A stretch of 64,000 nucleotides of DNA from Cyanobacteria bacterium FACHB-63 (GTDB taxonomy: Bacteria > Cyanobacteriota > Cyanobacteriia > Leptolyngbyales > Leptolyngbyaceae), in NCBI GenBank assembly GCA_014695255.1, contig JACJNX010000070.1, forward strand, positions 1 to 64,000, given 5' to 3'. Position numbers and translations under genes: made by a program. Shown piece by piece: positions 16 to 62,017 of this stretch. Each line of letters opens with the position of its first letter. Position 1 is the stretch's first letter. Under the pieces are notes generated by a model that did not search any database, had not been told where the DNA came from, and saw only the letters and a program-made list of their open reading frames with translations.

Positions 16-2001
16 TCATACAGTAATTTCCTCTTTGATCGTTCCATTAATGACTTTGATCTTGTCTGTCTTGGTGAGGCTAGAGATTCGCGATGGGAAC
101 TCAGCCACAAACAATTGATTCACCAACTGAGTAGAAATAACTCCTGCGATCGCCATGTCATCACTTTCACTCAACGGTCTACCGCTTTCTGTCTTACGTA
201 CCAATTGCGCGATCGCACTGGGATTAAACAGCCCTGTCGCTCGGATGGCTGACTCTGACAATAACTCGGACACATAATCGGGTGTGTGAGTATGAAAGAA
301 GCATCGATGAATCGGAGCGCGATAAGGACGCTTGCGGCGTTGCCAAATCTCCGCAGGTAGCATTTGACTTGCAAGCTGCCGCAGTAACCATTTTTCGGTT
401 AATCCCCGCAGCTTGAGCGAATCAGGCAGGCGATTGCAAAACTCCACGACTCGGTAATCGAGAAATGGAAAGCGTCCTTCAACGGAATGAGCCATACTGA
501 CACGATCGCTCTGGCATGACAGCAAATACGGAGCGAGAAAGGTTGTCATTTCTAAATATTGAGCTTGTCCTAAAGATGACCAACTGCCGAACTTTGCTGG
601 CAGTGGAAGTCGATCCTCGATCCACGTGTTGAGAGAGTCGATCGGAGGTTGCAGCAACAAGCGTCTTAGTCTTGCAGTATTCGACCAGCGAAGCCAGTGA
701 GAATAGATATTGAAATCTGTGTCAGTGAGCCTTTGCTTGAAAAAAGCAGTTAGAAAGGCTTCAGCACTGCCAAACTGAGAAATTTCAGGATACAACCGCT
801 TGAGCAGGAGCGGACGCAGTTTAGAATCCGGTTGTTTACTCCAAAACCGTCGGATGGTCATCTCTTTAAAAAGGTCGTAACCTCCCAAAATTTCATCTGC
901 CCCCTCTCCAGTAATGACCACCTTTAAGTTATGTTGATGAACCAAGCGAGACAGCAAAAACATCGGTGCAGGTGCAGTCCGCAGCATTGGCGTTTCTGTG
1001 TGCCAAACTACCTCTGGAAAGATATCGCCAATCTCAGATTGAGTGCAATGCACAACTTGATGATTCGTACCTAAAAGCGCGGACATTTGCCGCTGAAAGT
1101 GACTTTCATCGAATTCGGGATCAGAAAAGGCGATCGAGAATGTATCCAGTCGATTTTGAGTGTATTTGCGAATCAAGGCAGTGGTCGTTGATGAATCTAA
1201 TCCACCGCTTAGATAAGCACCCACAGGAACATCAGACCGCAGCCGCATTAAAGTCGCATCAATCAGCAAATGTTCAAACTCATCAAGATAATCCTGAGTG
1301 CTGCGATCGCGCTCAACATCTTCAGTAAAATCTAATTCCCAATAGCGATCGATGCTCAGATAACCTTCCCGCACTATCATGTAATGAGCAGGCGGAAGCG
1401 TTTGAATTCCTTCAAAGATAGTTCTTGGAGGGAGTATACTCCAGAAGGTAAAGACCTGAGCTAACGCATCGGTATCAATCCGAGCAGTGACACTGGGATG
1501 AGCAAGTAGCGTCTTGATTTCTGATCCGAAAATGAGTTGACCTTTGCAAACGGTGTAGAACAAAGGACGAATCCCCAGTCGATCGCGCCCTAAAAACAGC
1601 GTGTAGCTGCGAGTATCCCAGAGTGCGATCGCAAACTGTCCATTTAGATAATTGAGACAGTCCGCACCATATTCCTCATACAGATGTAGAACAACTTCGG
1701 TATCACAATCCGTCTTGAAGCGATGTCCTTGAGCTTCTAGTTGGGATCGTAGCTTTGGGTAATTAAAGATCTCACCATTGAAAACAATCCAAAGAGTTTC
1801 ATCTTCATTGCTAATTGGTTGCTGTCCACCACTCAGATCCACAATGCTGAGACGAGCATTGCCCAAATTTGCCCATTCATCTCGATAGATTCCGAACTCG
1901 TCTGAACCCCGATGACGAATCATGCCCAACATTTGCCGCAAAATTTCGACAGGGACAGGAGCAGAATCAAATAAATTCAGAACACCCACAATGCCACACA
2001 T
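16..2001 (-). CDS. AsnB-type glutamine-dependent amidotransferase (asparagine synthase family)
   Basis: The 661-residue protein starts MCGIVG, so Cys2 would be the N-terminal nucleophile of a class II glutaminase domain (about residues 2-190). The synthetase domain carries the PP-loop SGGLDSS at 265-271. The family hydrolyses glutamine, channels ammonia and transfers it to an adenylated carboxylate. It is the last gene of a minus-strand run with an AMP-ligase (26 bases upstream), an ACP and two precursor-like peptides, so it may amidate a carrier-bound acyl group or a peptide rather than make free asparagine. That substrate is inference. Amidotransferases of exosortase-associated clusters keep similar company, but no PEP-CTERM protein is seen here. 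Confidence 0.9.
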   Translation of the reverse strand: MCGIVGVLNLFDSAPVPVEILRQMLGMIRHRGSDEFGIYRDEWANLGNARLSIVDLSGGQQPISNEDETLWIVFNGEIFNYPKLRSQLEAQGHRFKTDCDTEVVLHLYEEYGADCLNYLNGQFAIALWDTRSYTLFLGRDRLGIRPLFYTVCKGQLIFGSEIKTLLAHPSVTARIDTDALAQVFTFWSILPPRTIFEGIQTLPPAHYMIVREGYLSIDRYWELDFTEDVERDRSTQDYLDEFEHLLIDATLMRLRSDVPVGAYLSGGLDSSTTTALIRKYTQNRLDTFSIAFSDPEFDESHFQRQMSALLGTNHQVVHCTQSEIGDIFPEVVWHTETPMLRTAPAPMFLLSRLVHQHNLKVVITGEGADEILGGYDLFKEMTIRRFWSKQPDSKLRPLLLKRLYPEISQFGSAEAFLTAFFKQRLTDTDFNIYSHWLRWSNTARLRRLLLQPPIDSLNTWIEDRLPLPAKFGSWSSLGQAQYLEMTTFLAPYLLSCQSDRVSMAHSVEGRFPFLDYRVVEFCNRLPDSLKLRGLTEKWLLRQLASQMLPAEIWQRRKRPYRAPIHRCFFHTHTPDYVSELLSESAIRATGLFNPSAIAQLVRKTESGRPLSESDDMAIAGVISTQLVNQLFVAEFPSRISSLTKTDKIKVINGTIKEEITV

Positions 2002-2027
2002 TGCTAACTCCCGCCGTGTTGCTTGAA

Positions 2028-3554
2028 TTAGGTCAACTCAGTCTTCTTAATCTTGCCTGTGGAAGTTTTAGGCAGTTCGCGACAAAATTCCACCCATTGA
2101 GGCATCATAAAATCTTCCAGATGCTCATGACAATGCCGCAGAACATGCGCTTCCGTGATTTCTGCATCGTTCTCTATGACTACAAATGCTTTCACGGCTT
2201 GACCCAATCGGGCATCAGGCACACCGATTACCGCAGCTTCTCGAACACCGGACAAAGCATACAGCACATTCTCAACTTCTTTGGGCGCAACTTTTTCGCC
2301 TCGGCTTTTAATCATGTCATCTTTGCGGGCAACAAAGTACAGATAGCCCTCTTCATCCATCCGAAAAAGATCCCCCGTATAACACAAGCGATCGCCGAGT
2401 GGAGTAGACCGAAACCGCAGCGTCGATCGTTCTGGGTCATTCCAGTAGCCGCGCATCACATGGCGACCCCGAACAACCAGCTCTCCGACTTCACCCGCTC
2501 TCAATCGCTCTCCCCGCTCATCTTCAATCCAGACTTCCGTACCAGGAATAGCAATGCCAACTGATCCAGGACGGTGATTCAACTGTTCGGGAGGAAGATA
2601 GAGCGTGCGCTTCGTTTCGGTAAGACCGTACATCGAGAACAATTTGACCGTAGGGAACATTGCGCGAATTGCTGCAATATGGGAAGCAGGAAGGGCGGCT
2701 GCGGTGTTCGTAATGTATCGTAAGCTAGATAAATCATAGCGGCTTAGATCAGTGTGCAGCAGTACCGAGAACAGGGTAGGCACACCTGGAAATCCTGTAA
2801 CCCGCTCAGTCTCAATCCGCTTAAGCACGATCGCCGGAAACGTAAAGCCTCGCTCTAGCACCAAAGTTCCACCAAAGTAGAACGACATAATCAATTGATA
2901 TAAGCCATAGTCAAACGACAAAGGCAGCGCATTGATAATCGTGTCGCTCTCAACATTTTCAAGATATTGAATAATAGAACTAGCAGCAAAGACAACATTG
3001 CTATGATCTGACATCACGCCTTTTGGATCACCCGTGCTACCAGATGTATAAATTAGACAGGCTAAATCCAGATCAATGTTGATCGAAGACAACCGATGTT
3101 CTGGATAATCTGCTTGAATCGCATCATAATGCAGCATCGCGTGATCTTCCTCGATTGCGGGAATCGGAGCCGTAAGAATTATTGCTTTTAGCGAAGAAAC
3201 CCTTTGAGCTAGCTGGCTTGCCAAGGTTGCTTGCCGTCCACTTGTGATTAAGACCCGCGCCTGACAATGGTTCAGAACATAAGCGCACTTTTCTAGCCGG
3301 GTCGTGTGATTAATCGGAACAAACACGCCTCCGGTCTTGAGACTAGCAAAGATGCTAATCACAAGCTCAGTACAGTTGGGCAGAAAGAGCGCAATTCGAT
3401 CGCCCCGCTGCACTCCCAGAGCGCGAAGTGCATGAGCTAAACGATTGGCTTGACACTCAATTCCTGCATAGGTCAAGCGCTCTTCACCACAAATAAGTGC
3501 AACTTTATCTGCTAATCGATCGGCACTCCGCTCTAGTAACTGATGAACTAACAT
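2028..3554 (-). CDS. AMP-dependent acyl/amino-acid ligase (ANL superfamily)
   Basis: The 508-residue ligase has the ANL P-loop YTSGSTGDPKG at 169-179, a YTGDLF element in the C-terminal third, and a terminal STGKIKK around 500 that supplies the usual adenylation lysine. The family activates a carboxylate as acyl-AMP and passes it to CoA or to a carrier-protein phosphopantetheine arm. The acyl carrier protein gene lies 35 bases upstream on the same strand, so loading of that ACP is the natural guess. Substrate specificity cannot be read from the sequence. The gene order ACP, ligase, amidotransferase resembles the ligase/amidotransferase/ACP sets of exosortase-type loci (family knowledge), here placed beside RiPP genes. 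Confidence 0.9.
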   Translation of the reverse strand: MLVHQLLERSADRLADKVALICGEERLTYAGIECQANRLAHALRALGVQRGDRIALFLPNCTELVISIFASLKTGGVFVPINHTTRLEKCAYVLNHCQARVLITSGRQATLASQLAQRVSSLKAIILTAPIPAIEEDHAMLHYDAIQADYPEHRLSSINIDLDLACLIYTSGSTGDPKGVMSDHSNVVFAASSIIQYLENVESDTIINALPLSFDYGLYQLIMSFYFGGTLVLERGFTFPAIVLKRIETERVTGFPGVPTLFSVLLHTDLSRYDLSSLRYITNTAAALPASHIAAIRAMFPTVKLFSMYGLTETKRTLYLPPEQLNHRPGSVGIAIPGTEVWIEDERGERLRAGEVGELVVRGRHVMRGYWNDPERSTLRFRSTPLGDRLCYTGDLFRMDEEGYLYFVARKDDMIKSRGEKVAPKEVENVLYALSGVREAAVIGVPDARLGQAVKAFVVIENDAEITEAHVLRHCHEHLEDFMMPQWVEFCRELPKTSTGKIKKTELT

Positions 3555-3589
3555 GACAGTGTTTGAATTTAGGGGTTGAATCGCAATGC

Positions 3590-3844
3590 TCAGACCGCCA
3601 AAAGCTGCTTGCGCTGCACATAGGCAGCTAAACCATTTACCGAGTCAAAGTTATCGGGACTAATTTCATGATCCTCGACTTGAATGTTCATGTTTTCCTC
3701 TAAAAACACCACGAGTTCCATTACATTCATCGAATCAATGATGCCGTTTTCTAAAAGCGAGTCTTCATCCGCATACGGATAACTTTGACTAAACAAGATG
3801 GTTTCTGAAATATACTTGCGAATGATGTCCTTAACGTTTTGCAT
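3590..3844 (-). CDS. Acyl carrier protein
   Basis: The 84-residue acidic protein has the carrier motif IIDSMNVMELV with Ser38 as the phosphopantetheine site. Length and motif position fit a free-standing ACP or peptidyl carrier protein. It sits between the AMP-ligase (35 bases downstream) and a small peptide gene (45 bases upstream), all on the minus strand, and presumably holds the acyl or aminoacyl group made by that ligase. DSM replaces the DSL of the housekeeping AcpP, and the location away from fatty-acid synthesis genes argues for a specialised carrier. Confidence 0.88.
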   Translation of the reverse strand: MQNVKDIIRKYISETILFSQSYPYADEDSLLENGIIDSMNVMELVVFLEENMNIQVEDHEISPDNFDSVNGLAAYVQRKQLLAV

Positions 3845-3889: not shown

Positions 3890-4222
3890 CTAGGGTTTAT
3901 CCTTTACCATCACAAAACCCCTGACAACGAGCATATCCTTGTTTGGAAAGTATTTCTCCTTTATCTTCATCTTCACACTGTCGCCGACACCGATTAGGTT
4001 CACTCCCGCAGAAACATCATCGCCGATCGCAACAGCAATTCCATGTCCTTTTCCCATAGAGCCACCATTTCCCAGCATTCTCACTGTGGCGGTTGTATCT
4101 GTTAAGGTAGCGCTTGGATCACCAAGAGCAAGTGCATCGGCTGTTACACCTACGAGAACTCCTCCTGAAATGGTATTGTTCTCTGCAATCTCTTCCAAGT
4201 AGCTCAAATCATTGATCAGCAT
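3890..4222 (-). CDS. Putative secreted peptide precursor with NDLSYLE...GG leader (A)
   Basis: This 110-residue product starts MLINDLSYLEEIAENN and reaches ISGG at about residue 21. That fits a double-glycine leader of the kind cut by C39 peptidase exporters, and such an exporter is encoded 4 kb away. The remaining roughly 89 residues are rich in Gly, Val, Thr and Asp, contain no Cys, and end in a basic stretch, so they are long for a modified peptide. The first ten residues match those of the neighbouring product at 4329-4616, but the cores do not, which is typical of leader-sharing precursor families. The core function is unknown. A C-rich minus-strand match of 14 bases lies just after its stop and again near 4703. 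Confidence 0.6.
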   Translation of the reverse strand: MLINDLSYLEEIAENNTISGGVLVGVTADALALGDPSATLTDTTATVRMLGNGGSMGKGHGIAVAIGDDVSAGVNLIGVGDSVKMKIKEKYFPNKDMLVVRGFVMVKDKP

Positions 4223-4328: not shown

Positions 4329-4616
4329 TCAAGCCGGGCTTAACTCGCCGAAAAATATACTCGTAAACGATTCGATGTTCCCATTAATGTTTTGAGTGCG
4401 ACTCGTAACCCCTACAACTGGCATCCCAGAAACGGTAAGAGCAACCTGAGTCGGTGTTGATGAAAGCGTTGTTTCAAACAAGGGTTTAGAACCATACTGA
4501 AGAACAAGCGCTTTATCCTTGATAGACAAAAGCAAAAGACCAAAAGGGAGAACGCCACCGGAACAATCGGGTACCTGACCTAGAGTTTCCAGATAAGATA
4601 AGTCATTGATTAGCAT
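4329..4616 (-). CDS. Putative secreted peptide precursor with NDLSYLE...GG leader (B)
   Basis: This 95-residue product starts MLINDLSYLETLGQ and reaches CSGG at about residue 21. The first ten residues equal those of the 3890-4222 product. The remaining roughly 74 residues (hydrophobic VLPFGLLLLS, then Ser/Thr-rich) are unrelated to the partner's core. The shared leader, double glycine and nearby C39 exporter support export after leader removal. It is the first gene of the minus-strand run leading through precursor A, the ACP, the ligase and the amidotransferase. A TGCCA-N3-TGGCA palindrome lies 53 bases before its start. No known bacteriocin family was recognised in the core. Confidence 0.58.
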   Translation of the reverse strand: MLINDLSYLETLGQVPDCSGGVLPFGLLLLSIKDKALVLQYGSKPLFETTLSSTPTQVALTVSGMPVVGVTSRTQNINGNIESFTSIFFGELSPA

Positions 4617-4795: not shown

Positions 4796-5701
4796 ATGAA
4801 AATTCTAGTATTGGGGAATGCGACCGATGCTCACGCGGCTCACGTCTTTCAAGCATTGACTGAGTTTGGAGCCACAGTCGCCTATTGGGATACTGCTCTA
4901 TTTCCCCGGCGATCGCGCCTGTCCTGGTATCCCCAAACCGCATTGGGCAGCATTGTCCTGCCTGATCAACAACAATGGCTGCTAGAAGAGATTCAGAGCG
5001 TTTTCTGGCGCTCCTTTGCTGGCGTACAGATTCCTTCTCTATCAGAACCCGATCAAGAACAAATTGCCCTACAGGATGCAATGAGCGTGTTGCGATCGCT
5101 GCTGCACACAGAATCGATTCGCTGGGTGAATTCTTGGCAGGCATACCAGTTCCATAAAGAAAAACCGCGTCAACTCAGTCAGGTCTATCAATTGGGAGTT
5201 CAGATTCCAGCAACCCTAGTGAGCAATGATGCAGACGCAATTATCAGGTTTGTGCAGCAACATTCTAAGGTGATCTTTAAGCCGGTTTATGGCGGTGCTC
5301 ATACCCAGTTTGTTACCCCTGAACATTTAGATTCTTCTCGGCTTCAAGCGGCTTTGAGCATTGCTCCTGCCACCTTTCAGGAATATATTCCGGGTACAAA
5401 TCTACGGAGTTATGTGATTGGCGATGCTGTGTACACCGCTGAAATTCGTAGTCCTGACCTTGATTTTCGACAAGATCTATCTGCTGAACTCATTCCGATC
5501 GCTCTACCCGACTCCATTCATCAGCAATGTCTTGCGATCGCTCGTGCCCTACTGCTGGAATGGACTGCGATCGATTGGCGACTGACTCCTGAAGGAGAGT
5601 ACATTTTTCTAGAAGCAAATCCCAGTCCAATGTTTCTTCATTTTGAACGGCAAACGGGCTATCCCATTACTCAACACCTCATTCAGCAATTGATCTGTTA
5701 A
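4796..5701 (+). CDS. RimK/MvdD-like ATP-grasp peptide ligase (putative graspetide macrocyclase)
   Basis: The 301-residue ATP-grasp protein has a Rossmann-like start (MKILVLGNATDAH), the nucleotide-lysine segment KPVYGG around 162-167, a QEYIPG hinge, and the C-terminal metal-ligand segment FLEANPSP at about 271-278. The architecture fits ligases that join Thr/Ser or Lys side chains of a precursor to Glu/Asp side chains, as in microviridin-type graspetides. The likely substrate is the convergent gene at 5783-6085, whose TT(L/M)ALGEEGG cores supply Thr donors and Glu acceptors. It is the only plus-strand gene in the cluster and faces its substrate across a shared terminator. The substrate pairing is inferred from proximity and core composition. 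Confidence 0.82.
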   Translation: MKILVLGNATDAHAAHVFQALTEFGATVAYWDTALFPRRSRLSWYPQTALGSIVLPDQQQWLLEEIQSVFWRSFAGVQIPSLSEPDQEQIALQDAMSVLRSLLHTESIRWVNSWQAYQFHKEKPRQLSQVYQLGVQIPATLVSNDADAIIRFVQQHSKVIFKPVYGGAHTQFVTPEHLDSSRLQAALSIAPATFQEYIPGTNLRSYVIGDAVYTAEIRSPDLDFRQDLSAELIPIALPDSIHQQCLAIARALLLEWTAIDWRLTPEGEYIFLEANPSPMFLHFERQTGYPITQHLIQQLIC

Positions 5702-5716
5702 CAAAGCATTAAAAAG

Positions 5717-5742
5717 GGCAGCAACTATTTCTAGTTGCTGCC
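5717..5742 (-). terminator. Intrinsic terminator after the graspetide precursor
   Basis: A perfect 11-bp stem (GGCAGCAACTA / TAGTTGCTGCC) closes a 4-base loop. Read on the minus strand it is followed by CTTTTTAA, so it ends the exporter-adaptor-HetP-precursor transcript 40 bases past the precursor stop. It also lies 15 bases past the convergent ATP-grasp stop, but has no T-run on that side. Confidence 0.8.
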
Positions 5743-5782
5743 AAGGGGCGCTGGGATGTTGATCAACGCGAACAACCTAAGA

Positions 5783-6085
5783 TCACAGTAGAGAATCCGG
5801 GTATCCACCTTCTTCCCCTAATGCCAAGGTCGTCACTCCGCCTTCTTCTCCTAGAGCCATAGTGGTCATTTCTGGCGGAGGAATCGGGACTGGGCGCGGG
5901 CAAATCGGAGGAACCTTGGGAGGGCGAGGAAAATAATCCCCCCTTCCGCCTTCTTCTCCAAGCGCTAAGGTGGTTAAAGTTAGTCCACCTGCAACCGCTT
6001 CAGCCGCATCTAGCATCAAGTCTTCTTCAAAGTCTAAATCAAGAGTTTTTAGTTCAGTAACACTTAGATCAAATGGGTGTCTCAT
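5783..6085 (-). CDS. Graspetide-like RiPP precursor with three TT(L/M)ALGEEGG cores
   Basis: The 100-residue precursor has a leader with PFDLSVTELKTLDLDFEE, related in style to ATP-grasp-recognised leaders, and reaches a double glycine at 33-34 (AVAGG), a natural C39 cleavage site. The core region holds three near-identical units: TTLALGEEGG at 38-47, TTMALGEEGG at 74-83 and TTLALGEEGG at 85-94. Units 1 and 2 are separated by a Pro-rich linker with one Cys (Cys62). Each unit offers two Thr and two Glu for omega-ester closure by the ATP-grasp enzyme. The unit codons differ synonymously, so the repeats are not recent copies. It is the last gene of the exporter operon, 82 bases after the HetP-fusion gene. 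Confidence 0.82.
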   Translation of the reverse strand: MRHPFDLSVTELKTLDLDFEEDLMLDAAEAVAGGLTLTTLALGEEGGRGDYFPRPPKVPPICPRPVPIPPPEMTTMALGEEGGVTTLALGEEGGYPDSLL

Positions 6086-6167: not shown

Positions 6168-6572
6168 TCACCCGGCGAACCAGCCATTCAACCAGGTAAA
6201 GCAATATCCACCCTTCACCTGCTGTTTTTCCTGAGCCGCTTCAACGTAAGCGAGATCTCGAATGGGATAGAGCGGCGAATTTTGATTAGCACTTGAAAAA
6301 GATTTCCGACCCGCCGCGACACTCGTTTGTTTTTGGGGCTTATCTTCCTGAGACGAAGATCTAGATAGCATATTGTCCTTTACCAGCCGATTGTAAGTCC
6401 GGTAGGGAATGTAGTGGAGTGGATTGTATCCAGCAAATCGCAAAATTAGCACACAAGCCCATGAATACTTGCCCGCTAAAATCGCCTCAACGACTTGAGC
6501 AAACTGATCGGCTTCCATCACTTTATCGACCTTTGCGCGATGGGTTTCGGAGTAAGAAGTGGAATAGTTCAT
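6168..6572 (-). CDS. HetP-domain protein with C-terminal double-glycine leader and short peptide tail
   Basis: The start ATG at 6572 is preceded by GGGAGA at good spacing. Residues 13-67 form a HetP-type domain: VVEAILAGKYSWACVLILR then YNPLHYIPYRTYNRL. In Anabaena HetP acts with HetR in commitment to heterocyst formation and lies next to hetC. After a Ser/Gln-rich linker the protein ends PIRDLAYVEAAQEKQQVKGG (104-122) plus the 12 residues YCFTWLNGWFAG. The DLxYxE...GG stretch matches the leaders of the two precursors at 3890-4616. The gene follows the C39 exporter and HlyD genes. I read it as a HetP domain fused to a peptide to be cut and exported. The domain call is strong; the export role is inference. 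Confidence 0.8.
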   Translation of the reverse strand: MNYSTSYSETHRAKVDKVMEADQFAQVVEAILAGKYSWACVLILRFAGYNPLHYIPYRTYNRLVKDNMLSRSSSQEDKPQKQTSVAAGRKSFSSANQNSPLYPIRDLAYVEAAQEKQQVKGGYCFTWLNGWFAG

Positions 6573-6613: not shown

Positions 6614-7942
6614 TTATAAATTCGCACCGTTCTGTAACTTCTTCAAAGGATCTAACAGCACATCTGCAACCCGACGTTGACGAGTCACAATCTCAGCAAC
6701 CGCAGTTTGTCCAGGCTTAAACTGAAAGGTTTGTCCTTTGGCATTGATGCTGTCACGATCGAGCGCCACTTCAACTCGATAGCTCTGCCCGAATTGTTCG
6801 TTCGGTTTGCTATCCGGAGAAATCGTGCTGACTCGACCGGGAACAATCCCATAGTCTTGATAAGGATAAGCATCCAATTTGACTTTAACAGGCAGACCCG
6901 GTTTGACAAATCCCATCTCTGCGCTAGGTAAGATAGCAGAAATGACCAGGGGTTGACCTTGAGGCGCGATCTCAGCGATCGTTTGTCCGGGTTGAGTAAA
7001 GACTCCACTACGACGAACGTTAAGCGATAGAACCACGCCCTTTGCGGGTGATCGCAGGAAACGCTGCTTCAGCTTAGTTCGATTTTCCTCTAGAAGAAAC
7101 CCTGTCTCTTTGACCTTCGCTTGCAGTTCTGTCAGCTTTACCGTGAGTTGTTGAATTTCCTGCTGTGCTTCTAACTGACTTTGTTGTGCCTCATCTTTTT
7201 TCTGAGCTAGTTCAATCTGCAAGCGTCTTGCCTCAGCTTGGGTTTGTTCTAACGCATTTTGTCGTTCTGTAATGCTGCGAGTTCGATCGCGCAATTGTTG
7301 TTCTGCGGTAAATACATTTTCTTGAGAAATAGCACCTTGTTCAACCAAGGGTTTTAATCGTTCCAGGCGTTTTTCTTGAGCATGAGCATCGGTTTCAAAC
7401 TGAGCGAGTAACTCTTGATTGCTTTCGGCATTGTTTTTCGATTGAGTGATCGCAACCTCCTGCATACTGATACTCGTTTTGGCGATCGCGGCGCGTGTTT
7501 CTGCCTGTAACCGAGTTTTGTCGAGTAGGTCTTGAGTTTGTAATTTCTCCATCTCAGACGATTGCAGCAGGTGTTCTAAGCGGTGCACCTCTTTCTCAGC
7601 AAGCTCAGTATCTAGCTCCATCAGAACTTGTCCTGCTTCTACGGTTTGACCTTCCTGCACCGCAATGCGAACCACTTTGCCAGAATCGATCGAATGAACT
7701 TGAAAAACTTCTCCTTTGGGAATTAACTTCCCTTTCGCTTGGGCAACTTCGTCGGTATGTCCATACCAAGACCAGACCGCAAACAGTAAGCAAAATGTTG
7801 TTCCGCCTAGAATCAATCGACTCGGTAAATTTGAAGGCGGCTGGTCTAGAACAGTTTGTAGAGGCAACGACCATTGAGTCGCGACTGCGTTGGCATGAAG
7901 TCTTGTCGCTTCCTCTGGAGATGATTTAGGCGTAGAAACCAT
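6614..7942 (-). CDS. HlyD-family membrane fusion protein
   Basis: I place the start at the ATG at 7942 (MVSTPKSSPEEA), because the open frame upstream to 8182 looks non-conserved; no strong ribosome site decides this. The 442-residue protein has one N-terminal membrane segment (LILGGTTFCLLFAVWSWYG), a lipoyl-like hairpin (SIDSGKVVRIAVQEGQTVEAGQVLMELD), a long Gln/Glu-rich coiled coil and a C-terminal beta-barrel region. It would bridge the inner-membrane ABC exporter encoded just upstream to the outer membrane for type I-like secretion of the cluster's peptides. Order and strand place it in one operon with the exporter and the two precursor genes. Confidence 0.9.
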   Translation of the reverse strand: MVSTPKSSPEEATRLHANAVATQWSLPLQTVLDQPPSNLPSRLILGGTTFCLLFAVWSWYGHTDEVAQAKGKLIPKGEVFQVHSIDSGKVVRIAVQEGQTVEAGQVLMELDTELAEKEVHRLEHLLQSSEMEKLQTQDLLDKTRLQAETRAAIAKTSISMQEVAITQSKNNAESNQELLAQFETDAHAQEKRLERLKPLVEQGAISQENVFTAEQQLRDRTRSITERQNALEQTQAEARRLQIELAQKKDEAQQSQLEAQQEIQQLTVKLTELQAKVKETGFLLEENRTKLKQRFLRSPAKGVVLSLNVRRSGVFTQPGQTIAEIAPQGQPLVISAILPSAEMGFVKPGLPVKVKLDAYPYQDYGIVPGRVSTISPDSKPNEQFGQSYRVEVALDRDSINAKGQTFQFKPGQTAVAEIVTRQRRVADVLLDPLKKLQNGANL

Positions 7943-8199
7943 AATGTTATACCGAAGAAATGATCTGAGCATTAGTTCTGTCAATTCGCTAAGGCAAAAT
8001 GACAAGGTTTCGAGAGGGTTGAGGCTAGAGAGCCGATGATGAAAGACTCCAAAATCAATCGTAAACAGTAGGAAAGCTATTTGAAGTAATGTCTGCGAAC
8101 AATAAAATGTGCTATGACACTTGAAGCTTTGCTTCATGATAGTTGTAACTCGGAGTTCGCTCTGCCAGATTGGCAGGAACATTGTTTAGCTTTCTTAAG

Positions 8200-11100
8200 C
8201 TATAGATTTAACTGCTGTTGTGCCAGGTTGTAATACAATCCTTGCTGGGCAATCAACTCCGAATGAGTTCCCTGTTCAACTAACACACCTTGATCGATGA
8301 CTAAAATTCGATCAGCGTTCTGCACCGTAGACAATCGATGAGCAATGATGAATGTAGTGCGATCGCGGCTAATTCGCGCTAAATTCTGCTGAAACCGCCG
8401 TTCAGATTCTGTATCTAGCGAACTGGTCGCTTCATCGAGCAATAGAATTGCCGGGTTTCCAAGCAGCGCACGAGCGATCGCAATTCGTTGGCGTTGTCCA
8501 CCAGATAAATTTGCTCCCCGTTCTCCTACTTTGGTGCTATAGCCCAAAGGCAAATCTTGAATAAATCCATGAGCTTCTGCCAGCTTTGCCACCTGAATCA
8601 CATCTTCTAGGGTAAATTCAGACCGAAAGAGCGTAATGTTCTCTAGAATCGTGCCTGAGAACAAGAAACACTCTTGAGGAACGACACCCAACTGCGATCG
8701 CAGCGAAGGCGGAGAAACATGACGAATATCATGCCCATCAATCCAGATTCGACCCGTCGTGGGATGATAAAGACCTTGCAAGAGTTTGACGAGCGTACTT
8801 TTTCCAGAACCACTCCGTCCTACGATCGCGATCGTCTGTCCAGGTTGGATTGCCAAAGTAATGTTCTGAAGCACATTCTTCTCAGTATCTTGATAGCGAA
8901 AAGTCACATCCTCGAACTGAATTTCACCCTTTAACTGTGGCAATACAAGCATCGGAGCGTGAGAAGACTCTTCCGGTTGAGTCGAAAACACATCATCCAA
9001 ACGCTCGACAGAAACAAGCACTTCCTGACACTCATCCCACAATCCGACCAACGACAACACTGGATTCGTAACATTCCCAATCAACATATTGAACGCAACA
9101 AACTGCCCGATCGTTAACTGGTCTTGAATCACCAAGTTTGCGCCAAACCAGAGTAAGGCGGTACTGCCCAAGGTATTAATCAATCCGCTTGTCGTTTGCA
9201 GCCCCAGCGAAAACTTCTGACCCCGAAATCGTTCATTCAGCATTGAGGTAAAGCGCTCCTCCCACAGCCAGCGCATTTCGCGCTCAGCCGCAGATGCCTT
9301 CACGGTTGCGATCCCCGTAATCATCTCGACGAGCGAAGAGTTTTGCGCGGCAGCTTCTTTGAAAATAGAACGAGAAATGCGACGGAGAAACGGACTCGCC
9401 ACGATCGTCAGAATAATAATCGGCGGTAAAAGTGCTAGAACCAGCAGCGTGAGTTGCCAATTGTAGTAGGCCATCAAGCCCACATAAACCACTGCGGTAA
9501 GCGCATTTAACCAAGCTGTCACGGCTTGCCGAGTCAGAAACGCCTGAATCTTCTGGTTTTCCTGAACCCGCGTGATAATGTCCCCGACCTGACGAGATTC
9601 AAAAAATTGCAGGGGTAGCTTTAGCGTGTGGTTAATAAACGCGCTGATAAAACTGAGATCGAGGCGGTTAGAGAAATAATCCAGCAAGTATTGGCGAACC
9701 GCTACTAAGCCGATCTGCCACACGCTGAATAACACTAACCCGATCGCAAAGACATTCAGGGCGGCTGGACTTTTTTGTACAATCACGCGATCGAGAATGA
9801 TTTGCGTGAACAGGGGCGTGATCAATCCAAACACCTGAAGCAACAGGGAAGTCAGAATAATTTGTACTAGAACTGAACGGTAGGGGGATAGGGCAGACCA
9901 GAACCGATTGAGCGACAGCTTTTCGCTTTTCGTTGCTCGAAACTGCTCACCTGGCTCCAATAAGAGAGCATATCCTGTCCAATTGCTCTGAAACTCTTCC
10001 GGTGTAAGTGTTTGCTTTCCAACCGCAGGATCAGCAATCAAAATCTGGCGATGTTTGGCACGATAGACCACGACATAGTGATCGCCCTGCCAGTGAGCAA
10101 TCCAAGGCTGATTCAGTTCGATTAAACGCCCCAAACTAGCTCGAACCGGACGGGATTGAAATCCAACTCGTTCAGCCGCCTCAGCGAGATTTTTTAGGGA
10201 AGTCCCCGATCGCCCTACATTTGCTAAATTCCGCAATGTATTGATGCTCCGTCGCTTGCCCCAATACTGACCGATCATGGCGAGACAGGCGATCCCACAG
10301 TCAGACGAGCTTTGCTGTTGGATAAAAGAGTAGGAAGCCCACAATCGCTTGCGCGATCGTCGTCGAGTTGGAGTTGGAAACGCCACTTCGGGTTGCTCAG
10401 AAGCCGTTTCTGGGGATCGGTCTGAGCGTGCGGGATAAGCAGTCGGCGCGACTTTCGGGGCAGCCAAATAATGTGGCTGCGATTGAGCGCCTCTACTCAC
10501 CCTGATCTCCAATGGCATTGGCTGGAAAATCGATCGATTCCCAGAAGCAGATTCCCGATTCAAAAGCACAGGAGCGATCGCGCAAGCCGCTTGCCAATGT
10601 TCTTCTGACAACTTGTAAATTGTCAGTTCTGTTTCAGCGACCCAATGAGAGGGAACTGGGTCAGGATAGCCCCAAAATTCTCCAAGCTGAGGAACTTGTT
10701 CAGCATTCCCCTGGTTCGCAATGCGTCCCGATCGTAGCCAGCAATGATTGATTCGGCAAAGATTCGAGTCCGAGAGTCGCTCTCCGGCGGCAATTCGATC
10801 TTCCGCAAGTAGCGGTAACAATTGCTGGAGTTGATCGCTAGGCAGCGATTGCAGCACTGTGGAAGTTTTGAAGAAGATTAAATGTTCGCGTTGTCGCGTT
10901 CGCTGCTCTAAGAAGTCCCGCAGATCCGGTAGTTGTTGCAGCCAGTATTGCACTTTCTCCTGGTCGAGGCGAGCGATTTGACTGGCGGAGGCGGCGATCG
11001 CTTGGTAAGGGAGCGGGGTATCTGAAAACAGCCGATCCCCGCCGAAGACTTCGCCGACTTCTAGGCTTTTGACTGAAACCCATCTTTGCCGCCTGGGATC

Positions 11101-11382
11101 AAAAGAGAGCAATCGCACTCGACCCTGACACACAATGAATAAGTCGCTCAGTTCAGTGCGGTTTTGTTCAGTAAGCACAGAATTGTCTTTGCGATCGTCT
11201 GTAGAATCAGTACAGATCGGCTGACCGAGCTGAAGCGAAATTAATTCAAACTCTTGAGAAAAGCGTACAAGCAGTGTCGGTTCTGCTTGAGACAGTGGGA
11301 GTTGTCTCAGAAGGTCTGGAACTGTTGCAACCGTTACATCTTCGATTCTTGACCGTGAACGGCTATCCACACGCGGATTCAT
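8200..11382 (-). CDS. HetC-like peptidase-containing ABC exporter
   Basis: The 1060-residue fused exporter has an N-terminal cNMP-binding-like domain (about 80-150) and a second weaker one (175-265), then a C39 peptidase with Cys362 (SSDCGIACLAM), His435 (GDHYVVVY) and Asp451 (ADPAVG). A six-helix membrane domain follows (about 500-780), then an ATPase with Walker A GRSGSGKST (855-863), LSGGQRQR and ILLLDEATSSLD. All catalytic residues are present. This layout matches HetC of Anabaena and cyanobacterial bacteriocin exporters. The peptidase would remove double-glycine leaders while the ATPase drives export. Cargo candidates lie in the same operon (HetP-fusion and graspetide precursor) and at 3890-4616. 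The N-terminal domains may gate transport by a small ligand. Confidence 0.92.
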   Translation of the reverse strand: MNPRVDSRSRSRIEDVTVATVPDLLRQLPLSQAEPTLLVRFSQEFELISLQLGQPICTDSTDDRKDNSVLTEQNRTELSDLFIVCQGRVRLLSFDPRRQRWVSVKSLEVGEVFGGDRLFSDTPLPYQAIAASASQIARLDQEKVQYWLQQLPDLRDFLEQRTRQREHLIFFKTSTVLQSLPSDQLQQLLPLLAEDRIAAGERLSDSNLCRINHCWLRSGRIANQGNAEQVPQLGEFWGYPDPVPSHWVAETELTIYKLSEEHWQAACAIAPVLLNRESASGNRSIFQPMPLEIRVSRGAQSQPHYLAAPKVAPTAYPARSDRSPETASEQPEVAFPTPTRRRSRKRLWASYSFIQQQSSSDCGIACLAMIGQYWGKRRSINTLRNLANVGRSGTSLKNLAEAAERVGFQSRPVRASLGRLIELNQPWIAHWQGDHYVVVYRAKHRQILIADPAVGKQTLTPEEFQSNWTGYALLLEPGEQFRATKSEKLSLNRFWSALSPYRSVLVQIILTSLLLQVFGLITPLFTQIILDRVIVQKSPAALNVFAIGLVLFSVWQIGLVAVRQYLLDYFSNRLDLSFISAFINHTLKLPLQFFESRQVGDIITRVQENQKIQAFLTRQAVTAWLNALTAVVYVGLMAYYNWQLTLLVLALLPPIIILTIVASPFLRRISRSIFKEAAAQNSSLVEMITGIATVKASAAEREMRWLWEERFTSMLNERFRGQKFSLGLQTTSGLINTLGSTALLWFGANLVIQDQLTIGQFVAFNMLIGNVTNPVLSLVGLWDECQEVLVSVERLDDVFSTQPEESSHAPMLVLPQLKGEIQFEDVTFRYQDTEKNVLQNITLAIQPGQTIAIVGRSGSGKSTLVKLLQGLYHPTTGRIWIDGHDIRHVSPPSLRSQLGVVPQECFLFSGTILENITLFRSEFTLEDVIQVAKLAEAHGFIQDLPLGYSTKVGERGANLSGGQRQRIAIARALLGNPAILLLDEATSSLDTESERRFQQNLARISRDRTTFIIAHRLSTVQNADRILVIDQGVLVEQGTHSELIAQQGLYYNLAQQQLNL

Positions 11383-32728: not shown

Positions 32729-32922
32729 AATGGCGCGATCGTGTGAAACTGCTTCTCTCAGTTTACTACTGCTTTATATTTCTTTACTGGGCTTGCAGGT
32801 CGATCAATTCACGATCGACACCTCGCTTACACCTGCAAACGCTAGAGTGGAACCTGCTTGACGTTCTAAAGTCTAGGCTTTACAGACCAAATATTTTCTA
32901 CCATAGGTGCTTTAATCTTCCT

Positions 32923-35679
32923 ATGCCTTTTCTAAAATTTCTTCAGCAATATCGCTTTGCCAGCTTTCTGTTTGTGCTCTGTCTCAGCGCGGTACTGCTA
33001 TCCAACTCAGTCCCTTTTCTGCAATCTGCATCTGCGGCGGTTCCAGCTTCCGTCACTACGACAGATACCGTTCGCAAGACTGTCCTTGATAACGGATTAA
33101 CGGTATTAACCAAAGAAGTTCCAACGGCTCCAGTCGTCACGGTACAAGTTTGGTATCGCATTGGATCGCGGGATGAAACCGCAGGCGTTAACGGCATTGC
33201 CCACCAATTAGAACACTTGATGTTCAAAGGAACGACCGATCGACCCATCCAATTCGGTCGCCTGTTTAACGCTTTAGGCAGTCAATCGAATGCGTTCACA
33301 AGCTACGATCAGACTGCTTATTTCGGCACTGTTCAACGAGATAAATTACGATCGCTCCTTGCCCTCGAAGCCGATCGAATGCAGAATGCCTTGATCAATC
33401 CCGATTCACTGACCAGTGAAAAGCGAGTGGTAATCTCCGAACTGCAAGGGTATGAAAACAGCCCGGATTATCGGCTCGATCGAGCGGTGATGAGAGCAGC
33501 TTTGCCAAATTCACCGTATGGATTACCTGTAGGTGGCACAAAAGCGGATGTCGAGAAATTTGAAGTCGAGCAAGTTCGGAACTACTACAGCAACTATTAC
33601 AGCCCGGACAATGCCACATTAATTCTGGTTGGCGACTTCAAAACAGAACCCACGCTGCAAGCGGTAAAAGAATTGTTTGGCAAAGTTCCGAAGCGAGAAA
33701 GAACGAATACTCAGACCCCGGCTCCAACGGCTGTCAAATCTGCAAAGCAATCTCAGCCGATCGTGCTACGAGAGCCAGGTAGCGCTCCTTTGCTCAGTGC
33801 CGTTTATCCTTTACCGATCGCGACTCATCCGGATGTGCCAGCGCTGCACGTTCTGGATCTCGTCCTTACTCAAGGTCGCAGTTCTCGGTTGTATCAAGCC
33901 CTCGTCGAAACTGGTCTGGTTAGCGGTTTTAGCGGCTATCCCGCAAACATGATTTCAGGCGGATGGTATGACCTTTCTGCCACTGCTGCCCCCAATCAGG
34001 ACTTGACTAAGGTTAACGAGGCGATTCAAACAGTATTAGCGGATATTCGATCGCAGGGTGTAACCCAAGAAGAACTCACCCGCGCTAAAACTCAGCTAAA
34101 ATCCTCGGTGCTTCTAAGAAATCGTGACATTACTAGCCAAGCGTTTCAACTTGGGGACGATCAAACTACCACAGGAGATTACAAATACACCGATCGCTTT
34201 CTGGCAAACGTCGATCGTGTGACTCCTGCTGATTTACAGCGAGTGGCTAAAACTTATTTCACCCTGGATAAAGCTACGATCGGATTCTTTCAACCGACAA
34301 CGATCGATGGCAAATCTGGGAGCGCTGTGAATGCAGGTCAAACCAGCGAGAAGTTTAATGCGGGACTGCCTGTTGATCCGGCTCAGGTGGCAAAATACCT
34401 GCCTGCGGTGCAACAAGGCGATCGCACTCCACAAGCTCTACCTGAGAAATACGTGCTGCCAAACGGCTTGAGAGTTCTACTCATGCGCGATACCAGCACG
34501 CCGACAATCTCGCTTAGTGCTGCGATTCAAGCGGGTTCAGAATTTGATTCCAACACAAAAGCAGGACTAGCAAAACTAACGGCGGATAACTTAACGAACG
34601 GCACAACGACCAAAGATGCGCTAACTCTGGCGAAAACGCTTGAAGATCGAGGAATTGATTTTGGCGTTGAAACCAGTAGAGAAAGCGTTTTAGTGAACGC
34701 TAATGCGCTATCTGAACACCTGCCGATCGTGCTGCAAACTTTATCAGACATCGCGCAGAAAGCAACGTTCCCCGATCGAGAACTCGAACTTGCTCGCGCA
34801 AGATCGCTGACCGCGCTCAAAGTTCAACTTGATAACCCTGCCGTTCTTGCTCGTCGTGTCTTTCAGCAAACGGTTTACCCGAAAAATCATCCGTTCTACA
34901 GCTTCCCCACTGAAGCCAGCCTAAAAGCCATTCAGCGTCAGGATTTAATTAACTTCTACCGATCGCACTACCGACCGGATAGAACGATCGTCGCGCTAGT
35001 AGGCAACTTTGATCCAACGGCAGTCAAATCGCTAATTGAAAAAGAATTAGGCGGATGGAAAGCGACCGGAAAAGCGCCAACCCTGACCTTCCCGCCTGTT
35101 TCATCTCCGAGTGCAACCGTTCGCCGTTACGCTGCGATTCCCGGCAAAACTCAAACTGTGACGCTAATTGGCTCAGCCGGAATCGATCGTCGCGATCCAC
35201 GCTTTTATAACGCTTCCGTGATGAATCAAATTCTTGGCGGCGACACCTTATCGAGTCGATTGGGGTCAGAAGTGCGCGATCGTCAAGGACTCACTTACGG
35301 AATTTACAGTTTCTTTCAAGCAGGAAACCGTCCGGGTCCCTTCGTGATCTCGATGCAAACGGCTCCCGAAGATGCTGATAAGGCGATCGCTAGCGCGGTC
35401 AATCTCTTAGACCAAATCCGCACCAAAGGCGTGAGTGCAACCGAAGTCGTGACGGCGCAGCGATCGATCACCAACAGCTACCCTGTTGACTTGGCAAGCC
35501 CCGATCAACTTGCTAGCGTTCTCTTGATGAACGAGATGTACGGCTTGAACCCGATCGAGCTGCGACAGTATCCGAATCAAATTGATGCGGTGACGCAAGC
35601 CCAAGTGAATCAGGCTGCCCAAGACCTACTTCGACCCGAACAGGTCATCATCGTTACAGCAGGACCACCGAAGCCGTAA
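32923..35679 (+). CDS. M16-family zinc metalloprotease (two-domain, exported)
   Basis: I place the start at the ATG at 32923, which opens a signal peptide (FLFVLCLSAVLLSNSVPFLQSASA); the open frame upstream to 32743 lacks protein character. The 918-residue protein has two M16 halves. The first holds the inverted zinc motif HQLEH (His94, Glu97, His98) and later GYENSPDYRLDRAV. The second begins near LPNGLRVLLMRDTSTPTIS and lacks the motif, as usual for the inactive half. Pitrilysin-type enzymes degrade peptides in the periplasm. No operon partner is seen. Confidence 0.93.
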   Translation: MPFLKFLQQYRFASFLFVLCLSAVLLSNSVPFLQSASAAVPASVTTTDTVRKTVLDNGLTVLTKEVPTAPVVTVQVWYRIGSRDETAGVNGIAHQLEHLMFKGTTDRPIQFGRLFNALGSQSNAFTSYDQTAYFGTVQRDKLRSLLALEADRMQNALINPDSLTSEKRVVISELQGYENSPDYRLDRAVMRAALPNSPYGLPVGGTKADVEKFEVEQVRNYYSNYYSPDNATLILVGDFKTEPTLQAVKELFGKVPKRERTNTQTPAPTAVKSAKQSQPIVLREPGSAPLLSAVYPLPIATHPDVPALHVLDLVLTQGRSSRLYQALVETGLVSGFSGYPANMISGGWYDLSATAAPNQDLTKVNEAIQTVLADIRSQGVTQEELTRAKTQLKSSVLLRNRDITSQAFQLGDDQTTTGDYKYTDRFLANVDRVTPADLQRVAKTYFTLDKATIGFFQPTTIDGKSGSAVNAGQTSEKFNAGLPVDPAQVAKYLPAVQQGDRTPQALPEKYVLPNGLRVLLMRDTSTPTISLSAAIQAGSEFDSNTKAGLAKLTADNLTNGTTTKDALTLAKTLEDRGIDFGVETSRESVLVNANALSEHLPIVLQTLSDIAQKATFPDRELELARARSLTALKVQLDNPAVLARRVFQQTVYPKNHPFYSFPTEASLKAIQRQDLINFYRSHYRPDRTIVALVGNFDPTAVKSLIEKELGGWKATGKAPTLTFPPVSSPSATVRRYAAIPGKTQTVTLIGSAGIDRRDPRFYNASVMNQILGGDTLSSRLGSEVRDRQGLTYGIYSFFQAGNRPGPFVISMQTAPEDADKAIASAVNLLDQIRTKGVSATEVVTAQRSITNSYPVDLASPDQLASVLLMNEMYGLNPIELRQYPNQIDAVTQAQVNQAAQDLLRPEQVIIVTAGPPKP

Positions 35680-52410: not shown

Positions 52411-53510
52411 AATCCTTTTTGAGTTGTAAGATTAACCATAGCGGTAGAGTTTCGGAAAATCAAACAGCGTATCCTGGAGAAATTGAACAAACAATTGCTT
52501 GACTTGAGCAAACGTTTCACAGCGGTAGTAACGCTGCCGCAGGTAGGTCTTTGCTTGCAGCCAGATGTCCTCAATTGGATTTTGCTCTGGAGCATTTGGC
52601 GCAAAGCAAATACAGTGAATTTGCCACTCAGCTTGGGGCTTGTCACCATTGATCTGCCTTAGAAACGCTTGCAATTCTTCAGAGCGATGGTACTTCGCTC
52701 CATCCCAAAGCAAGACCAAGCGTTGATTCGGATATTGTTTCAACAGCGCCTTGAGGAAGGTAATCGTGTGTTCGGAATTGCCTTTCGGCAGTCCCTTGAC
52801 AAACACTTCTCCGGTCAGATAGTCCACGGCTCCATAGTAGGTTTGTCGGGTTCGTGTGTTCAGAATCGGTACCTCAATCCGTTGACTGGTTCTGCCCCAA
52901 ACATAGCCGAGAATATTGCCCCACAGCAGATGGCACTCGTCTAACATCAATGCTCGCATTGCTCCCGACTCCAGTGCCACTTGATGCTGTCGGAGGAATT
53001 GCTCAATTTCGACTTTTTTGCGTCTACTGCTGCCTCGTCGTGTTTGGGATTGAGACTTTGACTCTTCTTCCAAGACAGTCCGGCTTGCCTCAGCAAGTCG
53101 TAGTAGCTTTGACGAGAGCGAAACTCAACTTGGTAGGTCTGCCACAGATAGCGTTGTAACTCTTCCAAGTGCCAATGGTCTTTTTGCTGGAGCCACTCAA
53201 TCACGGCTTGCTGTTCTTCAGTGCTGAGATATCCCACTCCGCCTTGATAGCCCAACTTCAGTGCAGATGCGCCTTGCTGCTGATAAATCCCTTTCCATTT
53301 GCTGATAAAGCCAGAGGTCACTTGTAACAGTGCCATGATCTCTCGCTGCATCACGCCTTGTAGAGTCATTTTTACGGCTAAGGCGCGTTTGAGTTCGCGG
53401 GCATCTTGCGTCTGTTGGATAAACTCTACCAAGTCTTCGAGCAAAGGTTCAGCCATCATGATTGAAAGTGAAATCAGTTTGATTCCTATCTTACAACCCT
53501 CTTAGGATTG
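52411..53510 (-). mobile_element. IS630-family insertion sequence
   Basis: Imperfect terminal inverted repeats of about 23 bases: left CAATCCTTTTTGAGTTGTAA and right (reverse complement) CAATCCTAAGAGGGTTGTAA, each continuing GAT. The ends abut TA-rich sequence, as expected of TA-targeting elements. Inside are two overlapping transposase frames. The right end lies directly against the truncated NTPase-WD40 gene. Confidence 0.88.
52432..53459 (-). CDS. IS630 transposase made by -1 frameshifting
   Basis: Frame A (53459 to 52947) gives the helix-turn-helix N-terminal domain: LKRALAVKMTLQGVMQREIMALLQVTSGFISKWKGIYQQ. Frame B (to 52432) gives the DDE domain: MLDECHLLWG, LVLLWDGAKYHRS and APEQNPIEDIW. 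In the overlap the zero frame reads GCA AAA AAG, so the canonical slippery heptamer A AAA AAG is present at 53013-53019; a -1 slip moves A-K-K into the frame continuing KVEIEQF. All three catalytic acids and the slip site are intact, so the element looks competent. Confidence 0.85.
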
Positions 53511-56599: not shown

Positions 56600-56860
56600 A
56601 TGCTACAAACATTTAGGGCAGTTCTCAAGGGAAACTCGATCGAGTGGATTGACGAAGCTCCTCAGTTGGGAGATCAGTCGATCGCGGTTCACATCACCGT
56701 ATTGGAAGAAAACGTAGGTTTAGACTCTGCCACTCGTGGTCAGAGAATGGCTGAAGTTTTGGAGAAGCTTGCATCGAATCGCGCCTTCTCAGACGTTGAT
56801 CCCGCAGTTTGGCAGCGTGAGGTGCGTCAAGATCGTTCGATTCCGGGACGAGACGACTAA
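56600..56860 (+). CDS. VapB-like antitoxin
   Basis: The 86-residue protein starts MLQTFRAVLKGNSIEWIDEAPQ with an AbrB/MraZ-like strand pattern, followed by VHITVLEE and a helical acidic tail. Its TAA overlaps the ATG of the PIN toxin gene (TAATG), the usual coupling of type II toxin-antitoxin pairs. It would bind and neutralise the VapC toxin and repress the operon. It lies within the integrated element, where it may stabilise inheritance. Confidence 0.8.
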   Translation: MLQTFRAVLKGNSIEWIDEAPQLGDQSIAVHITVLEENVGLDSATRGQRMAEVLEKLASNRAFSDVDPAVWQREVRQDRSIPGRDD

Positions 56861-57234
56861 TGCTTCTCGACAGCAACATTATTATTTACGCCATTCAGCC
56901 CGAAAATATTCAGCTTCGGCAATTCATTGCGGATCATACCCCCACTGTATCTGCACTAAGTTATGTTGAGGTACTTGGCTACCACCGCTTAACTGAGGCA
57001 GACCGCACAGATCTGGAGGAGTTCTTTCGCATTGCTTCAATGTTACCCATCACTCAGCCGATCTTGGAACAAGCCGTAGCACTCCGCCAAGTCCGAAGAA
57101 TGTCTCTCGGAGATTCGATTATTGCTGCAACTGCCCTCGTTCATAATTTAACGTTAGTGACGAGAAATACGAGCGATTTTCAATGGATTCAACACATTCG
57201 GTTGCTCAACCCATTTGAAGCAGATACAGAATAA
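56860..57234 (+). CDS. vapC: PIN-domain ribonuclease toxin VapC
   Basis: The 124-residue PIN protein has the four acidic residues of the active site: Asp4 (MLLDSNIIIYA), Glu37 (SYVEVLG), Asp85 (MSLGDSIIAATAL) and Asp106 (NTSDF). VapC toxins cut tRNA or rRNA. Overlap with the antitoxin gene and location in a mobile element support a functional addiction module. Confidence 0.9.
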   Translation: MLLDSNIIIYAIQPENIQLRQFIADHTPTVSALSYVEVLGYHRLTEADRTDLEEFFRIASMLPITQPILEQAVALRQVRRMSLGDSIIAATALVHNLTLVTRNTSDFQWIQHIRLLNPFEADTE

Positions 57235-57269
57235 GTGGTGTGATCACACTAACTTTGAGCGAGATCGCT

Positions 57270-57317
57270 CCACCTCGCTATAATTTAGGTGAAGCAGGAG
57301 GAAAAGACTGATGCAAG
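57270..57317 (+). repeat. 48-base duplicated upstream segment (copy 2)
   Basis: Partner of 56481-56528; includes AGGAGGAAAAG and the start ATGCAAG of the intact gene at 57311. Confidence 0.7.
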
Positions 57318-57703
57318 CCTCATCTGAGCAACTTCTAAACGCGATCGCACAAATGCCCCAACCCGAATTAGAGGCATTTGTTGAGCAGGTGTTAAAACTG
57401 CGTGCCCAACGTCAAGCACCCAGCGTTTCTTCTGCGGAATCCGAATTGCTGCTCAAAATTAATCAAGCCATTCCTGCGGATCTTCAGCATCGATTTAACG
57501 AACTTGTTGCCAAACGTCAAGCCCTCACATTGACTGAAGCAGAACACACAGAACTGATTCAACTGGGCGATCGCATCGAACAACTCGACGCGGAGCGCAT
57601 CGAACATTTAGCAGCGTTGGCAAAATTACGGAATCGATCGTTGAGAGAGATCATGCAAGATTTAGGAATTCAACCGCCCGCCTGTGTAAGTGCGATCGTG
57701 TGA
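57311..57703 (+). CDS. Helical hypothetical protein coupled to HNH nuclease
   Basis: The 130-residue protein is almost wholly alpha-helical: SSEQLLNAIAQMPQPELEAFVEQVLKLRAQRQ, then HRFNELVAKRQALTLTEAEHTELIQLGDRIEQLDAERIEHLAALAKL. AGGAGG precedes the ATG. The stop overlaps the GTG start of the HNH gene (GTGA), so the two are translated together. Small helical partners of this kind are often paired with HNH proteins in cyanobacteria. A broken copy of the same upstream segment lies before vapBC. Confidence 0.75.
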   Translation: MQASSEQLLNAIAQMPQPELEAFVEQVLKLRAQRQAPSVSSAESELLLKINQAIPADLQHRFNELVAKRQALTLTEAEHTELIQLGDRIEQLDAERIEHLAALAKLRNRSLREIMQDLGIQPPACVSAIV

Positions 57704-58122: not shown

Positions 58123-58142
58123 CGAAGACAATTCAGTTAAAT

Positions 58143-59864: not shown

Positions 59865-59866
59865 GA

Positions 59867-60250: not shown

Positions 60251-60431
60251 AAGAATTTTTCCGGACGTTGAGTTTGCTTGCTGATAAATTATGCGGTATA
60301 TTGTCAGCATATCATCCGCAAACGTCATTGAACTCGATGAGATTCCGAAAATAACTCAGCATAATTCAGCACAAGGGCTAGACGCTACAAAACACGGGTT
60401 CAATGGCGCTCACACAAAGGAAGAATGAATC

Positions 60432-61517: not shown

Positions 61518-61533
61518 CCTGTTGGAGTGACCT

Positions 61534-62004: not shown

Positions 62005-62017
62005 GAGTTCGCAAATC

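Follow-up and report, generated by a model that had tools for sequence, protein, structure and literature searches.

Why should a HetP-family protein carry a double-glycine leader and a short tail behind its HetP domain, and what might this say about the hetC-hetP pair of heterocyst formers? The protein lies in the window, the 64,000-nucleotide stretch of DNA from Cyanobacteria bacterium FACHB-63 that was analyzed here and compared with HetP loci and exporters of other cyanobacteria.

The putative HetP-type precursor and its run of genes

An earlier note on this DNA had described a HetP domain joined to a double-glycine leader and a 12-residue tail beside a C39 exporter and HlyD, and the open reading frame (ORF), the match to family NF037966, and the conservation of the leader confirmed that description. 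On the minus strand, the genes run in the order PCAT exporter, HlyD, HetP-GG protein, second precursor, and terminator-like hairpin. The features of the locus are as follows:

8200..11382, minus strand: PCAT exporter, 1060 aa, with cNMP-binding, C39 peptidase, ABC membrane, and ABC ATPase domains; of the exporter group that includes HetC
6614..8182, minus strand: HlyD membrane-fusion protein (TIGR01843, 1.3e-65); coordinates of the listed ORF, the true start probably lying further in
6168..6572, minus strand: HetP-GG protein, 134 aa, made up of HetP domain, linker, double-glycine leader, and core
6372..6545, minus strand: HetP domain, residues 10-67; NF037966 match, three predicted helices
6207..6257, minus strand: double-glycine leader DLAYVEAAQEKQQVKGG, residues 106-122; predicted cut after GG; family-conserved
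6171..6206, minus strand: predicted exported tail YCFTWLNGWFAG, residues 123-134, 12 aa; of the class of hypervariable aromatic-rich tails
5783..6085, minus strand: second precursor of the run, with TLALGEEGG-type repeats; graspetide-like
5717..5742, minus strand: strong terminator-like hairpin that closes the run of genes
4796..5701, plus strand: ATP-grasp peptide maturase, MvdC/D/SAV_5884-like by family matches
4329..4616, minus strand: HetP-less precursor MLINDLSYLETLGQVPDCSGG..., leader same as that of HetP
3890..4222, minus strand: HetP-less precursor MLINDLSYLEEIAENNTISGG..., leader same as that of HetP

The HetP gene starts with the ATG at 6572, which has GGGAG 8 nt on its 5' side, and stops at 6168. 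Its product matched the NF037966 HetP_family profile at 2.3e-34 and 116.8 bits (cut-off 45), and a profile search found it to be the sole HetP of its genome; a Pfam search returned no HetP match and two weak matches, both under the cut-off. In an AlphaFold2 model, pLDDT was 88-96 over residues 21-70, and helices were confidently predicted at residues 21-32, 36-46, and 57-72. Linker, leader, and tail had no confident structure, which suits a stretch that has to be accessible to a peptidase. Comparison of the HetP-domain fold with solved structures gave no match.

Residues D106, L107, Y109, G121, and G122 are near-invariant across 20 diverse HetPs, nearly all PCAT-linked, and the leader is thus not a chance motif. 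Known PCAT substrates are recognized by GG (or GA) with a hydrophobic residue at position -4, and the predicted cut site QQVKGG, within the stretch ...QQVKGGYCFTWLNGWFAG, has this form. The gene also adjoins a C39 exporter whose catalytic residues, the Q/C/H/D of the C39 active site, are intact. The leader departs from the usual N-terminal position, as it starts at residue 106, behind the folded domain.

Other features were seen along the window. The ATP-grasp maturase faces the precursor with TLALGEEGG repeats (4796-6085), which looks like a graspetide cluster using the common exporter; profile searches gave no family match for this second precursor. An asparagine-synthase-like amidotransferase, an AMP-dependent ligase, and an acyl carrier protein stand in a row at 16-3844, adjoining the peptide cluster, and it is possible that the two sets co-operate in biosynthesis. 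An M16-like protease ORF lies at 32743-35679, 21 kb from the exporter. The region 56860-64000 is plasmid-like by eye, with a relaxase-like ORF (59100-59864), a ParM-like ATPase (60432-61517), and a PIN/VapC-like ORF (56860-57234), and may represent either a plasmid or an integrated element; an IS630-type transposase in two overlapping frames was likewise seen by eye at 52432-53459.

A shared leader and the probable descent of hetC-hetP

Around the PCAT-HlyD-HetP cassettes of non-heterocystous cyanobacteria we found ~50 small ORFs without a HetP domain, two of them in the window, and most of these start M(I/L/V)(I/V)(S/N)DLxYLE...GG. The leader is a separate module of ~18 residues. Since HetP-less precursors bear the same leader in the same loci, the HetP domain is an add-on placed ahead of it, and HetP, to judge by its sequence, uses the ordinary leader of its exporter group set behind the HetP domain. 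It had been suggested in the earlier note that a HetP domain can act as, or derive from, the leader of an exported peptide. The leader-tail architecture is indeed present, but the domain is not itself the leader; that candidate was rejected because the HetP-less neighbors bear the same leader N-terminally.

In an even sample of 386 genomes, 21 of the 25 HetPs outside the sampled Nostocales family lay no more than 6.5 kb from a PCAT on the same strand, and almost all carried the leader. A few PCAT-linked HetPs have no leader at all (L171, L236, and L250). Outside heterocyst formers, HetP tails vary between genomes and are often short and aromatic-rich: W, F, and Y make up 23.6% of 31 non-heterocystous tails (≤20 residues), one of which (L118) is probably a chance GS, versus 7.6% of control C-termini. 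Some tails outside Nostocales, such as FRYFWW in L140, AKNWWYF in L161, and VGLFGNFWRF in L094, are pheromone-like in make-up.

We inferred the direction of change from a tree of 138 exporters (FastTree), midpoint-rooted with no wide outgroup, in which two rows labelled HetC (L237 and L242) are mislabelled non-heterocystous exporters. All 45 heterocystous HetCs formed one clade with support of 100, and this clade grouped with cassette exporters, including that of the window. The second exporter that is often found downstream of hetP formed a group apart from the HetC clade. The grouping, together with the occurrence of non-heterocystous HetPs almost always in PCAT-HlyD-HetP-GG arrangements, supports the earlier proposal that the HetC-HetP pair has its origin in a cassette for peptide export.

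A full HlyD adjoins 34 of the 35 exporters labelled non-heterocystous, upstream of HetP, and the sole one without it (L123) is a mislabelled member of the HetC clade. Within that clade, HlyD is absent or shortened. Fischerella, Chlorogloeopsis, and their relatives have an in-frame HlyD, mostly of ~305-340 residues, that keeps both ends and has lost much of the middle, the part that forms a hairpin reaching the outer-membrane channel. This shortened gene lies between hetC and hetP and is conserved in Fischerella relatives (L035, L036, L040, L044-L046, L048, and L063); at the same position Calothrix has a scrap, and nothing was detected in Anabaena and Nostoc. From this decay series, the HetC-HetP cassette looks to have shifted from export out of the cell toward cutting, or toward export to the periplasm.

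A GG ending in other HetC-linked HetPs had been set as a check on the earlier proposal, and it is present in 43 of the 44 HetPs beside a catalytic HetC. These HetPs keep the 18-residue DLxYLE..I.GG motif, and the residue at -4 is I or V in 43 of 43 intact HetC-linked HetPs, under a search pattern that allowed I, V, L, A, and M. The Anabaena-type HetP adjoining HetC reads KIKDLAYLEVVGKQKTEIRGG followed by a ~36-aa tail. The HetPs nearest to that of PCC 7120, itself outside the comparison set, are L256 and L257, which have ~159 residues (...TEIHGGNLDQWLTEQVHEFQDMYLEPQAISNQDITFKLSDLDFIHN) and a GG-spanning stretch that reads KIKDLAYLEVVGKQTTEIHGGNLDQWLTE.

Joint decay of HetC and the HetP leader

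To relate HetC to the HetP leader, we scored 87 heterocystous hetP loci with enough upstream sequence, taking as intact a leader plus a tail of at least 10 residues and as HetC a catalytically intact protein; two loci in which the contig ends within HetC and L066, with an alignment artefact at the end, were counted as having HetC. The two states agreed at 81 of the 87 loci, with catalytic HetC and intact leader and tail at 43, neither at 38, leader only at 5, and HetC only at 1 (Fisher p 5e-18, with kinship ignored and with a leader criterion drawn up once the data were known). Similarity to the window protein was the basis for picking the 80 named loci, which favors leader-bearing HetPs; the even sample of 386 genomes avoids this bias, at the cost of size. 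Decayed forms have GS, SG, AN, DS, or GV at the cut site, RPLLE, RAYLE, or YRE in the helix, or truncations.

hetC sits between a conserved GH116 gene and hetP, and the median gap between these two is 5.8 kb with HetC versus 2.75 kb without, which shows that hetC was deleted in place. A whole-genome search found no HetC elsewhere in 28 HetC-less genomes and so ruled out mere relocation of the gene in them. HetC was lost repeatedly and in place. On the tree of the syntenic GH116 gene, the HetC state changed 7 times, and six independent pairs on well-supported branches could be compared: the leader followed HetC in 4-5 and did the opposite in none, with a sign-test p of only ~0.06 because just six pairs are left once kinship is counted. 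A tree of hetP N-terminal sequences gave 10 changes for the HetC state and 10 for the leader state. The GH116 glycosidase gene was observed directly upstream of hetC on the same strand in L106 (2010-4427) and 69 other loci.

Members of the Nodularia group show what reads as a half-way state, with HetC present but its Cys lost and the tail shortened: in L128 and L142 the catalytic Cys has become Ser (QSDD, QSHD), and the HetP tail is down to 4 residues. The HetC of the L128 genome also reads with an internal TAG, and N. spumigena CCY9414 has no HetC, in agreement with its genome paper (PMC3610870). Among the exceptions, L133 has HetC and GR in place of GG; L067, L078, and L097 keep the leader with a broken hetC, a breakage that is perhaps recent; and Mastigocoleus (L087/L095) keeps a GA leader and tail with HetC fragments only and a leader dN/dS of 0.05.

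Other causes of the decay were considered. The second downstream exporter is retained in 24 of the 38 decayed loci and thus does not maintain the leader; as it also belongs to a different clade, it was rejected as the processor of HetP. A single deletion taking both hetC and the hetP tail was rejected, as an intact HetP domain separates hetC, on the 5' side of hetP, from the tail at the 3' end. Genome reduction is unlikely, given that genomes of 8-9 Mb are in the set.

Selection on the parts of HetP was estimated as pairwise Nei-Gojobori dN/dS summed over pairs within a clade, which for these short segments gives point estimates without error bars. Domain/leader values were 0.13/0.05, 0.15/0.03, 0.08/0.01, 0.10/0.06, and 0.09/0.06 in five clades with HetC, and 0.11/0.11, 0.10/0.19, 0.16/0.20, and 0.15/0.31 in four clades with no HetC or a dead one; two HetC-less Mastigocoleus sequences that keep the motif gave 0.04/0.05. 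In all clades with a working HetC, constraint is stronger on the leader than on the domain; this holds for no clade without one. With HetC it is the most constrained part of HetP (0.01-0.06), and constraint on the domain is unchanged when HetC is lost. The tail with HetC has a dN/dS of 0.12-0.42, indicating purifying selection. The decayed leader of the Dolichospermum-type clade retains fair conservation (0.11) and may have some other role too.

Proposed processing, rival readings, and known systems

We consider it likely that HetP-family proteins of the leader-bearing kind are substrates of the adjoining C39 exporter, with the core exported and the domain staying behind, and that their cassette became hetC-hetP. 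As leader and tail decay upon loss of HetC across ~90 genomes, HetP is probably the long-sought substrate of HetC. The architecture, shared leader, orthology, joint decay, and selection on the leader, all read from the sequences, suggest a three-part substrate built of a small folded HetP domain, a flexible linker, and a C-terminal core, with the standard leader of the exporter, DLxYLE...GG, at the end of the linker. The C39 domain would bind this leader and cut after GG, the core would be translocated and exported, and the released HetP domain would remain in the cytoplasm. On the way from the PCAT-HlyD-HetP cassette of non-heterocyst formers to the hetC-hetP of heterocyst formers, HlyD would have been trimmed and lost, the tail would have become longer and more conserved, at ~36 residues, and the freed domain would have come to serve commitment. 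Here we infer the cleavage itself, which of its products matters, and where the tail goes.

Published experiments bear on this proposal. Expressed three- to four-fold, C-terminally tagged HetP fully makes up for a HetC peptidase mutation and gives many more contiguous heterocysts (PMC4133259). This fits HetP acting after HetC; dosage could account for it, and so could a tail that has ceased to inhibit. HetP-GFP fluorescence was alike with and without the HetC peptidase (PMC4133259), which counts against cleavage, though a C-terminal GFP would be expected to block export. Heterocyst formers without HetC have also lost the tail, which suggests that a HetP with no tail can come to do without processing.

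The cut could be an activation switch only, in which HetC removes an inhibitory or anchoring tail to free the domain, and the tail itself does nothing once exported. HetC-less lineages drop tail and leader with normal domain constraint, raised HetP bypasses the peptidase mutant (PMC4133259), and the HetC line has lost HlyD, which would follow if secretion from the cell had ceased to matter; yet the tail beside HetC is under purifying selection and has a recognizable pattern, beyond the needs of a disposable end. This reading is plausible, although we lean against it. We tentatively put forward another, in which HetP would be a two-ended signal: the HetC cut in a committing cell would free a commitment factor and send out a ~36-residue peptide that restrains the neighbors, the whole built from an export cassette of non-heterocystous, including unicellular, cyanobacteria.

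Alternatively, the tail may be the point, these being ordinary secreted bacteriocin- or pheromone-like peptides with the HetP domain as a long carrier, which is the reading of Wang et al. 2011. It accords with the hypervariable, short, W/F/Y-rich tails of non-heterocystous HetPs and with clusters full of other precursors and modifying enzymes. However, the HetP domain ranks everywhere with the best-conserved parts and stands alone in dozens of Nostocales paralogues, whereas the neighboring precursors have the same leader and a core without it, and we think this account unlikely. We strongly doubt that the leader is a fossil, with HetC now cutting PatS, HetN, or another substrate and HetP decaying with HetC via a common pathway. 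Processing of PatS and HetN by HetC has been proposed (PMC4133259), but in a fossil one would not expect the strongest constraint within HetP, above that on the domain, exactly where HetC is present. Moreover, decay strikes the GG and tail and not the domain, and loss of the catalytic Cys alone accompanies tail loss in Nodularia.

If HetP is cut by HetC, the question of the HetC substrate is answered and the biochemical role of HetP reframed, and a bacterial cell-fate switch would have been assembled from a bacteriocin-type exporter. Natural mutants exist, in Nodularia with a dead HetC and in Nostoc and Brasilonema with hetC deletions, and indicate what to expect.

Thirteen HetP-like putative precursors lie close to C39 exporters in the analysis of Wang, Fewer & Sivonen 2011 (PMC3140520) and show the motif KIxDLxYLEx10GG: ten belong to group II clusters and one to group I, and the other two (159 residues) to unclassified clusters. 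They were read as bacteriocin precursors, the motif being tentatively ascribed to an M16 peptidase, and HetP plus GG precursors were reported again in 2015 for Subsection V (PMC4558948). The window has the combination that marks group II (long-type C39 exporter, HlyD, and HetP-type precursor) and shares with those clusters (PMC3140520; PMC4558948) the HetP domain and the KIxDLxYLEx10GG motif. The text of PMC3140520 does not hold an exporter-substrate link between HetC and HetP, their co-loss, or the decay of HlyD. A 2024 paper (PMC10986499) showed the peptidase activity of HetC, called its substrate unknown, a point that would suit a fossil leader, placed HetP among the candidates worth testing, and found no double-glycine leader gene near hetC. 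Among the papers searched, those on heterocysts do not pick up the HetP-type double-glycine precursors, and none tested HetP as a HetC substrate.

EbfG1-4 and PteB of Synechococcus elongatus (PMC4997328) likewise pair a cyanobacterial C39 exporter with double-glycine small proteins, with a community function; that paper presents the EbfG proteins as small double-glycine proteins and mentions no HetP domain. HetC of Anabaena/Nostoc PCC 7120 (PMC4133259, PMC10986499) has the same cNMP, C39, and ABC parts as the window exporter, and HetP adjoins it. HetC, however, forms its own clade and has no full HlyD, whereas the window exporter lies outside that clade, groups with PCAT-HlyD-HetP exporters, and has a full HlyD (6614-8182); the HetPs of close relatives of PCC 7120 have the leader and a tail of roughly 33-42 residues, compared with 12 in the window. 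Taken alone, the window locus is one more of the class listed in 2011, and what is new is the evidence for an exporter-substrate pairing and its origin.
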